This document shows positions 3,672 through 57,325 of a stretch of DNA of 64,000 nucleotides, piece after piece. The stretch comes from a virus, in IMG/VR virus record IMGVR_UViG_3300018080_003823, positions 1 to 64,000 of that record. One strand, 5' to 3'. The translations under genes and the position numbers were made by a program. The notes beneath the pieces were generated by a model. The model was not told the origin of the DNA and did no database searches. It saw only the letters and a list, made by a program, of their open reading frames with translations. Each line of letters starts with the position of its first letter. Position 1 is the stretch's first letter.

Positions 3672-4054
3672 CAGACGAAAAAATGATTTTTTATTCAGAT
3701 TATTTTGCATACATTGCAGAAGCAGGACTCAATAGATCTAGAGCAATTTTTCCTGCTATCGCAACTAGTGTTTCTGCTGATACTTCTACAATTGTTAACC
3801 CAGTTAATGCTGATTCTGCTATAAAAAACCTAAGTAATAAATTAGAGACAAGTTACGAGTGGTTTTGGAGTGATGCTCAGAATACTACACCTATGCAACG
3901 ATCATTTATTGGTTTAAGTGAATATATTAGAAAGAAAAGCGGACTAGAAGTTGAAGACTATTTGACTCAAGAAGGCATACAGGTGGAATCAACTTATGCG
4001 CAAATACATAACATTTTTGAAGAAACTGATATAAGTACTGGAAATGTGAAGTAA
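3668..4054 (+). CDS. Hypothetical protein upstream of terminase
   Basis: A 128-aa soluble, acidic protein whose ATG overlaps the preceding stop (ATGA), indicating translational coupling. It ends two bases before the terminase start. Its length and its position just before terL would suit a small terminase or head-assembly factor, but I see no helix-turn-helix or other family motif, so that role is only a guess from position. Confidence 0.7.
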   Translation: MTDEKMIFYSDYFAYIAEAGLNRSRAIFPAIATSVSADTSTIVNPVNADSAIKNLSNKLETSYEWFWSDAQNTTPMQRSFIGLSEYIRKKSGLEVEDYLTQEGIQVESTYAQIHNIFEETDISTGNVK

Positions 4055-53598: not shown

Positions 53599-53604
53599 TA
53601 TAAT
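53599..53604 (+). promoter_or_regulatory. Possible -10 element (TGTATAAT) for metK
   Basis: TATAAT lies 29 bases upstream of the metK ATG; no clear -35 hexamer. Confidence 0.4.
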
Positions 53605-53627
53605 TGAACTCACCTATGGAGATTTTT

Positions 53628-54842
53628 ATGTCAAAAAAACTTGCTCTTTTTACTTCTGAATCTGTTACAATGGGTCATCCTGACAAAGTCGCTGATAGTA
53701 TTTCTGATGCAATTTTAGACAGTCTTATTAAGCCCGATCCGCATGTACGAGCTGCAATAGAAACTTTGGTTACCACTGACACTGTTGTTGTTTCCGGAGA
53801 GATTACCGTTCATAATGAAGCGGCAAAACAAGCTCTTAAAAACATAGAACAAACAATAAGACGTACTATTCAGCAGATCGGGTATACCAGACCAGGCTCT
53901 GGATTCGATTACAAGACGTGCAAAATTGACTCTAAAATACATCCTCAATCCGAAGACATTAGTCGTGGTATTACACGAGATGAAAAGCCAGATACAGAGC
54001 AAGGAGCTGGAGACCAGGGGATGATGTTTGGTTATGCTTGTAATGAGACTAAATCCCTCATGCCTCTGCCTATTCAGCTGGCTCATCGATTAGTCAAACA
54101 ATTAGCTTTAGTTCGAGAACTGGATATTTGCCCATGGGTTCTTCCTGATGGTAAATCGCAAGTAACTATTGAATACGAAGATGGTAAACCAGTGGGTATA
54201 CATAATATTGTAATATCAACTCAACACACAGAAGATGTTATTTCGAGTTCTACAGATGAAATTAGTGATATTGCCAAAGAAGAGATTTTGGAGAATGTTA
54301 TAAAGCCTGCTATTCAGCATGAATGTCCACAATTCTCCAAAGATAATTTTTCTATTCATATTAACCCAACTGGTCGTTTTGTAATAGGTGGACCCCATGG
54401 AGATACAGGTCTCACGGGAAGGAAAATAATTGTAGATACTTATGGAAGTATGGGACGCCATGGAGGAGGAGCATTTTCTGGCAAGGATCCAACTAAGGTA
54501 GATCGATCAGCAGCTTATATGGCTAGGTATATTGCCAAAAATATTGTTAGTAATAAATTAGCTGATCGGTGCGAAGTACAGCTTGCTTATGCTATTGGTG
54601 TAGCAGAACCTGTGAGTGTTTTAATAGATACTTTTGGGACTGGTTCTATAGAAGAAGATAAGTTAGAAAGAATTGTTCGTAATATATTTCCTTTGACTCC
54701 AGCAGGTATTATTAAAGAATTAGATCTTCGTCGTCCTATTTATTATGAAACATCACATCATGGGCATTTTGGTGGGACTAATTCAGATTTTACATGGGAG
54801 AAATTGTGGGATTATACTATTCTTCTAAATAGAATTTTATAA
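53628..54842 (+). CDS. metK: S-adenosylmethionine synthetase
   Basis: A 404-aa enzyme making SAM from methionine and ATP. ATG 53628 has GGAG six bases upstream; an in-frame TTG at 53604 is rejected. All signature motifs are intact: [16 protein letters not shown] (16-31), [12 protein letters not shown] (126-137), [13 protein letters not shown] (254-266) and [19 protein letters not shown] (279-297). Length is normal for bacterial MetK. It is rare in phages; it may support methylation or compensate for SAM depletion. It looks functional. Confidence 0.97.
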
Positions 54843-54888: not shown

Positions 54889-55557
54889 ATGAGCACAATA
54901 AGAGTAAAAAAAGTTGATAATTTAACTGATTCAATAGATCAAGAAGCGTTAACGGAAATGCAGAGGAAGATGAAATACAAGAAGATGGGCATAAAAAATG
55001 CTATGAGCCGTCATAGCAGACAAATGGAATTAGCAAGAAATAGGCTTGATTCTAACTTTAGTGAGTATTTGGAACAGGATGAAATAATTAGGCTATTAAA
55101 AATATCACACGATATTGAAGAAAATCCCAGTCAGTTACATTGTAAGTGCAAACACAAAGATGCCCCCCATACTCCTGATTTTGACTTGAATGTATTTGTA
55201 AATAGAATCAAACAAATGAAAATAGAGGATAATCCACGTCGTTTGTGCTCATCATTAATAGCAACATTAGATGCTATTAGCACCGATTTGACAGAAGATA
55301 ATATTAATACATTAAGAGAATTATTGCCAAAGATAGTTGATATATTACATTCTGTAGAAAAAGAGAGGAATAGGACTACTTCGATGGACAAGGAGGAAAT
55401 AAAAGAATTCGAAAAATCATGTTTGGTATCTACTTGTATGACTGACGAATTCTGGACGGATATCATTTTACAGAACAGATTGCATTCCATCACAAGAAAA
55501 GAACAAAATAAGCGTAATAATTTTTCGATAGATGATATTGACATCGATTTTCTGTAA
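54889..55557 (+). CDS. Hypothetical helical protein
   Basis: A 222-aa charged helical protein with TATGGAG upstream of the start. Cys/His residues near 85-92 (HCKCKHKDAPH) could bind a metal. No family recognised. The promoter of the suppressor tRNA lies in its last codons. Confidence 0.65.
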   Translation: MSTIRVKKVDNLTDSIDQEALTEMQRKMKYKKMGIKNAMSRHSRQMELARNRLDSNFSEYLEQDEIIRLLKISHDIEENPSQLHCKCKHKDAPHTPDFDLNVFVNRIKQMKIEDNPRRLCSSLIATLDAISTDLTEDNINTLRELLPKIVDILHSVEKERNRTTSMDKEEIKEFEKSCLVSTCMTDEFWTDIILQNRLHSITRKEQNKRNNFSIDDIDIDFL

Positions 55558-55565
55558 TGTATAAT
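55538..55565 (+). promoter_or_regulatory. Perfect-consensus sigma70 promoter for the suppressor tRNA
   Basis: TTGACA 55538-55543 and TATAAT 55560-55565 with a 16-base spacer. The expected start (about 55572-55575) coincides with the first base of the tRNA. Confidence 0.85.
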
Positions 55566-55574
55566 GTAGTTGTA

Positions 55575-55648
55575 GCGTCAGTAGCTCAATTAGGCAGAGC
55601 AGTTCTCTCTAATAGAACTGGTTCCAGGTTCAAGTCCTGGTTGACGCA
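55575..55648 (+). tRNA. tRNA with CUA anticodon (amber suppressor)
   Basis: A complete cloverleaf. The acceptor stem is GCGTCAG/TTGACGC (one G-U). The D-arm is GCTC/GAGC with GG in the loop. The anticodon stem is GTTCT/AGAAC with loop CTCTAAT, and the T-arm is CCAGG/CCTGG with loop TTCAAGT. Anticodon bases 34-36 are C55609, T55610 and A55611, reading UAG. Discriminator is A; CCA is not encoded. The charging amino acid cannot be told from sequence. Confidence 0.93.
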
Positions 55649-55685
55649 ATAGTAGATAATTAAGTCTATTTTAAGGAGAAAAACA

Positions 55686-56078
55686 ATGGGTTTTACGTAG
55701 GTACAAGAGCCGTATTTGTATGTCATAGTCCGAAAAGATCTTTCAACTCCACAACAAGCCGTTCAGGCAATGCACGCTATTTTTGAATTAACCACTTCAG
55801 AGTCCTTTAAACCACCGTAGAGACATCCTAACATAATATTTTGTGAAGTTCGTAATGAGCGTCAATTATTCAAATTTTCTCAGAAATTAAAAACAGAGAA
55901 TATAAAATTTGTCATTTTTCAAGAACCAGATATCGGTGATGAATATACAGCTCTGGCCACAGAGATAGTATATGATCACCGATCTTTGTTTAAAAATTTA
56001 CAGTTAGTTCAGGATAATTGCACAAAGGGAACATTTCATACTCTGGTTGCAAACAATAAAAAGGAGCCAAAATCATGA
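55686..56078 (+). CDS. Peptidyl-tRNA hydrolase 2-like protein with two in-frame TAG codons (predicted amber readthrough)
   Basis: A 130-codon ORF behind TTAAGGAG, starting ATG GGT TTT ACG TAG. The only internal stops are TAG at codons 5 (55698-55700) and 45 (55818-55820); no TAA or TGA occurs before the final TGA (56076-56078). That TGA overlaps the next gene's ATG as ATGA. The translation with X at TAG contains LYVIVRKDLSTPQQAVQAMHA and FQEPDIGDEYTALATE, the pattern of PTH2-type peptidyl-tRNA hydrolase-like proteins. The suppressor tRNA with CUA anticodon lies 38 bases upstream. The reading is therefore recoding rather than decay. The enzyme would release peptides from stalled peptidyl-tRNA; this activity is inferred. 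Confidence 0.82.
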
Positions 56079-56578
56079 ATAGTACTATTGTTGATCAAGC
56101 ATTTAAAACTAGATGGGGTTATGTTGCATATAGTTATGAGGATTACAAAAAGCTTAAAAGATTGAATATAATTTTCCAAAAAGCTCGCACTTATGCATAT
56201 CAATGGGAGAGATGGGTAAGAAAAGCTCCTCATAATAGAGTACGTAAAATTTGGAAGCGAGATGAGAATAGACACAAAATCGGATATACTATTTCAGGAC
56301 CATTGCCCGAACCTCAGTTTTGTGATATATTTTTCACGAAATTAGTAGATACTGATCGTAATCCTATTGGACAAAGATGGCTTAATATGGTTATTTATTC
56401 TAATATAGGATACATACGAATCGATAAAGATATTGCTACAGAATATCGTAATTCTCATCGTCCAGTAGAAACGTCCGAAAAGGTTCCGGAAGCCAATATG
56501 TCTAGTGATGAAATTGATGAATTACTTGAAAAAGCAGAAGATTGGTATAATTCAATAAATGCTGTTACGTCTGTCTGA
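56075..56578 (+). CDS. Hypothetical protein downstream of the PTH2-like gene
   Basis: A 167-aa basic protein translationally coupled to the preceding gene by ATGA and with AAGGAG upstream. Trp/Tyr/Arg-rich N-terminal helices and an acidic C-terminal helix (SSDEIDELLEKAEDWY). No family recognised. It overlaps the convergent nitrilase-like gene by 27 bases. Confidence 0.65.
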   Translation: MNSTIVDQAFKTRWGYVAYSYEDYKKLKRLNIIFQKARTYAYQWERWVRKAPHNRVRKIWKRDENRHKIGYTISGPLPEPQFCDIFFTKLVDTDRNPIGQRWLNMVIYSNIGYIRIDKDIATEYRNSHRPVETSEKVPEANMSSDEIDELLEKAEDWYNSINAVTSV

Positions 56579-57325
56579 CAGCATGTTTCTTTGTTTCCGG
56601 ATGGATGATATTTTAGAAGTATGTATAAATGAGCCAATTGTCTGTTCAGTGTCACCGGATGCTGAACAGACAATTGTGCCATCCGGATCTATTATTCTGC
56701 TTGACCCACAAAATGTTAAATTCTTATCTCGTCCAACTCTATTACATGCTACGACATATACCTGATTTTCGATTGCTCTGCACATAGTTAATATTTCCCA
56801 ATGTTTTAAATTAGTAAAAGCAGCAATGATAATAATTATTTCAGCCCCATTAGCTGCTAAGGTTCTTGCTACTTCTGGGAAATAAATATCATATCCGATT
56901 AAAAAACCGAATTTAATTCCTCTTATATTAACTATTGGAAGTGAATCACCAGGCGTCATATGATGTTTTTCATATACAGGATAAGAGTGCAATAAATGAG
57001 TTTTTCTATAACACATTGTTTTTTCCAAATCATATATCATCATACTATTAAACAAATGGCTGTTAGTTTTTTCTGAAAGCCCACAAATTACTCTTACATT
57101 TAATTCCTCAGCTTTACGTTTAATCTTGTCATACGGAGTATTAGAAGACCATGACGATGAGCAATCTGATATGTTTGTCATTTCATATCCAGTATCAGAT
57201 AATTCTGGGAATATTACTAATTGACAATTATCTAATTGCGCTTTTTCTATTGATTTTATGATTTTTGAGCAGTTATGTTCAATATTTCCAACATCACAAT
57301 TAAGCTGTACTACATTTATTTCCAT
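56552..57325 (-). CDS. Nitrilase/carbon-nitrogen hydrolase homologue lacking the catalytic cysteine
   Basis: A 257-aa member of the carbon-nitrogen hydrolase superfamily. Catalytic Glu (FPELSDTGY, E41) and Lys (YRKTHLL, K108) are present. The nucleophile position, normally Cys in a CYDxxFPE motif, is Gly in LIGYDIYFPE (G144, codon GGA at 56896-56894 of the minus strand). The fold appears complete, so I infer a catalytically dead binding or regulatory protein, or a recent inactivation. Confidence 0.85.
   Translation of the reverse strand: MEINVVQLNCDVGNIEHNCSKIIKSIEKAQLDNCQLVIFPELSDTGYEMTNISDCSSSWSSNTPYDKIKRKAEELNVRVICGLSEKTNSHLFNSMMIYDLEKTMCYRKTHLLHSYPVYEKHHMTPGDSLPIVNIRGIKFGFLIGYDIYFPEVARTLAANGAEIIIIIAAFTNLKHWEILTMCRAIENQVYVVACNRVGRDKNLTFCGSSRIIDPDGTIVCSASGDTEQTIGSFIHTSKISSIRKQRNMLSDRRNSIY
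56635..56676. repeat. Perfect 15-bp inverted repeat near the 3' end of the nitrilase-like gene
   Basis: CAATTGTCTGTTCAG (56635-56649) and CTGAACAGACAATTG (56662-56676) flank a 12-base loop. It could act as a bidirectional terminator between convergent genes or as a protein-binding site. Confidence 0.8.

Follow-up and report, generated by a model that had tools for sequence, protein, structure and literature searches.

A start-proximal stop codon in PTH2-like genes of large phages covaries with the anticodon of a suppressor tRNA

Features of the locus

The window (the whole stretch of DNA that was analysed, 64,000 nucleotides of a 65.8-kb virus record) carries an amber suppressor tRNA, an open reading frame (ORF) for a protein similar to the PTH2 family of peptidyl-tRNA hydrolases, and a gene of unknown function (Table 1). 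The tRNA, which is the only one in the record, was detected by ARAGORN and scored 62.5 bits against Rfam RF00005 (cut-off 29); the ARAGORN label "tRNA-Pyl" was taken to signify the anticodon CUA and nothing more. The promoter-like sequence matches the consensus at 12 of 12 positions and is the sole such match in the region. In the PTH2-like ORF, no stop codon other than TAG at codons 5 and 45 was found before the terminal TGA, and the peptide encoded ahead of the first TAG (MGFT) is similar to that of the homologue L097 (MGFS). The ATG of the following gene (56075) and the TGA of the PTH2-like gene (56076-56078) overlap as ATGA; no match to the product of this following gene was obtained in Pfam and PHROG searches. 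Given the promoter and the terminator-like hairpin, the tRNA, the PTH2-like ORF and the downstream gene are likely to form a single transcript, which is inferred from sequence alone. The window also contains a phage S-adenosylmethionine synthetase gene upstream (53604-54842) and a carbon-nitrogen hydrolase gene (56552-57325).

A sequence-only reading of the window had claimed a cloverleaf tRNA with a CUA anticodon, a perfect TTGACA-N16-TATAAT promoter, a strong ribosome site ahead of the ORF, TAG at codons 5 and 45 with no other stop, an ATGA overlap with the next gene, and PTH2-like sequence around the TAG codons. All of these claims held, the last one on the basis of the Pfam match of the read-through product.

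Table 1. Coordinates of the features of the tRNA and PTH2-like locus in the window
Feature	Position	Strand	Basis or remark
Promoter-like TTGACA-N16-TATAAT	55538..55565	+	TTGACA 55538-55543, TATAAT 55560-55565; overlaps 3' end of preceding ORF
Amber suppressor tRNA	55575..55648	+	Anticodon CUA 55609-55611; CCA not encoded; ARAGORN, Rfam RF00005
Shine-Dalgarno TAAGGAG of PTH2-like ORF	55672..55678	+	Sequence
PTH2-like gene	55686..56078	+	ATG 55686; 130 codons with TAG read through; Pfam PTH2, AF2 fold, jumbo-phage homologues
Start-proximal TAG (putative gate), codon 5, followed by G	55698..55700	+	Sequence; conserved in homologues
Second in-frame TAG, codon 45	55818..55820	+	Sequence; loop between helix 1 and strand 2
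Next gene, 167 aa, unknown	56075..56578	+	ORF list
Terminator-like hairpin	56559..56584	+	End of likely transcript

Protein family and genetic code

Read through both TAG codons, the window protein scored 23.7 bits against the Pfam PTH2 profile (cut-off 23). PTH2 was matched by 61 of 71 homologues at E <= 0.01, and the profile of the phage family matched PTH2 with E=1.9e-9. The structure predicted by AF2 (pLDDT 91.6) was aligned with VIA-align to the PTH2 structures 1q7s, 3erj, 1wn2, 2zv3 and 1xty with Z scores of 13.7-14.2 and an rmsd of about 2.0 over about 100 residues, versus Z scores under 5 for unrelated folds. A PDB search using the single window sequence returned nothing; no non-PTH2 fold was seen in a second-look alignment, yet such folds are not thereby excluded. 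Both requirements for membership of the PTH2 family (PF01981), profile cut-off and fold, are met, and the protein is homologous to PTH2 by fold and sequence. Its hydrolase activity is unproven. The phage family retains the Q..H motif; GKGK and DAGxT are absent, and when the profiles of 2zv3 and the phage family are aligned, these segments coincide with phage-family gaps of 2 and 4 residues. Residues of the GKGK and DAGxT...T segments are catalytic in PTH2, and the criterion of canonical segments for an active peptidyl-tRNA hydrolase is not met.

Ten of the 57 ORFs of the window terminate with TAG. Coding coverage was 0.89, versus 0.93 with TAG read as sense and 0.91 in the TGA control, and the window does not qualify as a phage with genome-wide TAG recoding (code 15). 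In those parts of the homologue loci that were analysed, the code is likewise standard.

Homologue survey and position of the stop codon

PTH2-like homologues were found in jumbo phages by tblastn. Two alignment scans of IMG/VR provided a set of 126 loci. Dereplication at 90% gave 117 clusters, whose PTH2-like genes come mostly from large phages. Scans of IMG/VR with single proteins (P0001, the window terminase and L002) returned nothing; the alignment queries did succeed.

When the frame was read upstream of the domain, most loci displayed an ATG and one to three further codons, with a stop codon separating these from the domain. Genes with such a stop at codon 2-5, directly ahead of the domain, are called gated hereafter, and account for about 70 of the 117 clusters: 60 with TAG, 4 with TAG that are fusions, the PTH2-like part lying behind an extra N-terminal domain, 5 with TGA (L071 among these being doubtful) and 2 with TAA. 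Under the counting rule used, 46 clusters lack a start-proximal gate. The peptides ahead of the stop are varied (MK, MT, MS, MCL, MKK, MTH and MGFS among the homologues), and the stop lies at codon 2-5 in 75 of 77 members. The nucleotide after the stop is A in 48 members, G in 27, C in 2 and T in none. Thus 75 of 77 members have a purine at this place, whereas the coding background would predict 42% pyrimidine (p about 1e-15 on the assumption of independent rows). A U at this +4 position lowers bacterial readthrough (PMC5289835). A Shine-Dalgarno match was detected in 46 of 77 members and in none of the other 31, and 47 of 73 genes contain no ATG, GTG or TTG between the stop and a conserved Arg.

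Stops within the domain were found in 6 of the 117 clusters, all of them TAG, with no TAA or TGA; in five clusters (the window and four others) the TAG falls in the same loop. L115 has no start-proximal gate, a TAG within the domain and a CUA tRNA 0.5 kb away.

Among ORFs of the scanned loci having a start-proximal stop and a Shine-Dalgarno sequence, 25 of 30 were the PTH2-like gene. The remaining candidates for other recurrent gated genes were rejected, being scattered or fragments of PTH2. No other family recurs beside the PTH2-like gene across lineages in the comparison of gene neighbours.

In phage XacN1, ORF364 is a fusion of an N-terminal domain to PTH2, and an in-frame ATG AAG TAG precedes it. 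The TAG thus lies at the start of the fusion (L003, 2443-3300), which indicates that the gate is a property of the start of the gene rather than of the PTH2 domain; a weak HD match of the N-terminal domain was obtained in the CM1 homologue only.

Two other arrangements were observed. In L035, the gated PTH2-like gene is closely followed by a second ORF (3692-3943) that starts with ATG, one codon, TAG and ATT and is possibly also gated. In L023 (1930-2680) and L028 (2246-2985), a broken 5' end of a gated PTH2-like gene runs into an ORF resembling an HNH-type homing endonuclease, and the intact gene follows directly after this broken copy, which gives the gene the look of an endonuclease target.

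Correspondence between stop codon and suppressor anticodon

Gated genes were paired with suppressor tRNAs according to two sets. In the loose set (tRNA within 3 kb; 51 clusters), 45 TAG/CUA, 4 TGA/UCA and 2 TAA/UUA pairs were obtained, without mismatch. The strict set (52 clusters), from which genes were removed if an ATG or GTG lay after the stop but ahead of the domain, and to which whole-record tRNA checks were added, contained 48 TAG/CUA, 2 TGA/UCA and 2 TAA/UUA pairs, again without mismatch. The probability of such pairing by chance is 4e-9 (loose) or 6e-7 (strict), clusters being treated as independent. The membership criterion for a suppressor-gated gene, namely that the identity of the stop matches the anticodon of a suppressor from the same genome, is met.

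The best tree implies about five switches to TGA or TAA, every one matched by the anticodon; this tree is poorly resolved (96 columns), with well-supported branches under only 2 switches. L138 (TGA/UCA) and L133 (TAG/CUA) share 71% identity. For gated genes without a flanking suppressor, a cognate tRNA was found elsewhere in ten records (XacN1 and LR756511 included). Whole-record checks revealed no cognate tRNA in three gated huge phages of 635 kb (LR745206, LR756504 and LR756502), and none was found in one 175-kb and one 58-kb gated record and a few short fragments; ARAGORN may overlook divergent tRNAs, and some of these records are partial.

The bodies of the suppressor tRNAs are of many types, so a single tRNA identity for all suppressors was rejected, and what is conserved is therefore decoding and not one amino acid. 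Suppressors also occur near non-gated homologues (17 of 46 clusters). Lak phages L016 and L017 carry a UUA tRNA (2240-2312 and 2347-2419, respectively) about 0.7 kb upstream of an ungated PTH2-like gene.

Cultured phages and their annotation

As a test of prediction, six cultured jumbo phages were fetched once the pattern had been seen. All six (Serratia BF, Cronobacter GAP32, Pectobacterium CBB, Xanthomonas XbC2, Salmonella Arash and Tenacibaculum pT24) carry a start-proximal TAG and a CUA tRNA 1-4 kb away. The gated gene is unannotated in the BF record, and in the GAP32, CBB, XbC2, Arash, pT24 and ME3 records the annotated start lies within the domain or past the stop. Phage Atu_ph07, which has a UCA suppressor and two Pth genes (PMC6102473), was not among the tblastn matches.

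The cluster C mycobacteriophages I3, Myrna, Phabba and ScoobyDoobyDoo, together with L088, have ATG or GTG, then TAG, then GTG, and were excluded from the strict count. In the mycobacteriophages the GTG directly after the stop is at good Shine-Dalgarno spacing, and it is possible that these genes and that of L088 start there.

Gated genes in Planctomycetota

When bacterial and archaeal genomes were scanned, six gated genes were found on contigs of Planctomycetota metagenome-assembled genomes (L249-L254); for 3 of the 6 loci, the sequence retrieved includes a CUA tRNA. Several of these contigs contain neighbours of cellular type (ClpA-like ATPase, DUF1559, histidine kinase), suggesting a chromosomal location. 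The gated gene lies close to a ClpA-like gene in L250 and L254, and in the latter close to DUF1559 genes as well. The planctomycete module may thus be chromosomal, a tentative placement, as misbinned or integrated phage DNA remains possible. The gated gene is rare and patchy in this phylum (1 of 392 genomes drawn phylum-wide, 3 of 95 in one family).

Proposed mechanism and alternative explanations

A dedicated suppressor tRNA very probably gates one conserved, PTH2-like gene; readthrough in cells is inferred, no proteomics or reporter data being available. This interpretation rests on the conserved gate, the covariation of codon and anticodon, the purine-biased 3' context and the ordinary TAG stops elsewhere in the same phages. 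In the proposed mechanism, ribosomes would initiate on the PTH2-like mRNA and reach the stop 1-4 codons on, where termination would follow except when a suppressor tRNA of matching anticodon, encoded by the phage itself, outcompetes the release factor. The gene would report suppressor activity, its expression being proportional to suppression, and the second TAG of the window would impose a steeper dependence on the suppressor. Suppressor tRNAs would also push ribosomes past normal stops, leaving peptidyl-tRNA and stalled products that the protein would clear, and this clean-up factor would thus be produced only when needed. That clean-up of such products is indeed the purpose is a weaker inference than the gate, at slightly less than even odds.

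The sequence-only reading had proposed such a recoding switch, in which the PTH2-like protein is made only with the phage amber suppressor. This is supported, without proof at the protein level, by the conservation of the start-proximal stop in phages of many hosts, the anticodon covariation and the 3' context favouring readthrough. Its suggestion that the protein may recycle peptidyl-tRNA remains unproven, two canonical active-site segments being absent. It had expected decay to mix stop types, and the in-domain stops of homologues are TAG only. It had also held that relatives with TAA or TGA would refute it; such relatives exist, but with UUA or UCA suppressors, and the case for recoding is therefore strengthened.

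The best-surviving alternative, which is possible, is a homeostat, with the gate acting as sensor in a negative feedback loop: strong suppression would yield PTH2-like protein and the latter would in turn weaken suppression, perhaps through stripping of the suppressor tRNA or release of nascent chains where stops are read through, in the way that RF2 restrains its own production at the in-frame stop of prfB. The architecture is that of autoregulated prfB, where a start-proximal stop is decoded by a regulated activity (PMC12421855); the frequent proximity of ungated homologues to a suppressor tRNA suggests that the protein may act with that tRNA, and the altered active-site segments permit a changed substrate. 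However, biochemical data are absent, and it is merely supposed that the protein binds the suppressor tRNA.

Re-initiation or internal initiation after a tiny leader ORF with a real stop, the tRNA being unrelated, is very improbable. Ile or Val codons (ATT and GTG included) are frequent after the stop, and the TAG-GTG arrangement of the cluster C mycobacteriophages would suit this explanation. However, most genes offer no usable start codon ahead of the conserved Arg, and re-initiation leaves unexplained both the tracking of the anticodon by the stop type and the TAG-only in-domain stops.

There is equally little support for code 15, under which TAG would be a sense codon throughout and the TAG of the PTH2-like gene unremarkable. 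Genome-wide TAG recoding together with CUA tRNAs does occur in phages (PMC6784885, PMC9523058), and L035 holds its other ORF with a start-proximal TAG. Against this, the coding gain with TAG as sense is close to that of the TGA control, many ORFs end in TAG, and the stop keeps to codon 2-5, with TGA or TAA in place of TAG when the suppressor is a different one.

In a minigene explanation, also most unlikely, the 1-4-codon ORF would itself drive peptidyl-tRNA drop-off, titrating a tRNA or host Pth, and the PTH2-like protein would relieve this. The lambda bar minigenes, of similar length and with a strong Shine-Dalgarno sequence, cause drop-off and are toxic when Pth is limiting; this precedent and the Shine-Dalgarno matches favour the explanation. 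However, many members lack such a match, and drop-off alone does not predict codon-anticodon covariation.

A decayed gene, to which the in-frame stops might point, is all but excluded by the restriction to suppressible stop types, the intactness of the domain in phage and bacterial copies alike, and the recurrence of the gate across distant lineages.

Beyond the gating of one gene by a suppressor tRNA, a bolder reading would see a widespread mobile module (phages, planctomycete bins) in which the level of stop-codon suppression in the infected cell is set by a self-sensing circuit of the PTH2-like protein and a nonsense-suppressor tRNA, suppressors of standard-code phages existing for the circuit rather than for genome recoding; the balance is slightly against it.

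Significance and comparison with known systems

Many phages with a standard code carry suppressor tRNAs without apparent purpose. The authors of the XacN1 genome did not find the target genes of its two CUA tRNAs (PMC5852040), and a study of crAss-like phages asks why "non-functioning" suppressors are retained (PMC12386605). The PTH2-like gate supplies a conserved target gene and makes this question directly testable in cultured phages. It also accounts for the PTH2-like gene being overlooked or truncated in phage annotation, and represents a natural part for stop-codon-controlled expression. The sequence-only reading had considered a dedicated tRNA/PTH2-like pair to be undescribed, and no earlier description of the pair or of its gate was found in the open-access literature searched.

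The phage family shares with PTH2 hydrolases (PF01981; PDB 2zv3, 1xty, 1q7s) the fold (Z about 14) and the sequence profile, but lacks canonical GKGK and DAGxT and is stop-gated. As in the Lak and crAss-like code 15 phages, a phage-encoded suppressor tRNA would decode an in-frame stop; many genes are recoded there, whereas here the code is standard and there is one recurrent target in unrelated lineages. In pyrrolysine and selenocysteine decoding, a dedicated tRNA likewise decodes a stop in few genes, but the heterogeneous suppressor bodies found here imply no fixed amino acid. In prfB (RF2), a start-proximal in-frame stop also ties full-length synthesis to the termination state of the cell (PMC12421855). 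However, a +1 frameshift senses low RF2 in prfB, whereas the reading frame of the gated gene is unbroken across the stop, so that the criterion for a prfB-type programmed frameshift is not met; its stop is apparently decoded by a suppressor tRNA that has a gene of its own, and codon and anticodon covary. The logic of the two circuits is alike, and their mechanism is not.
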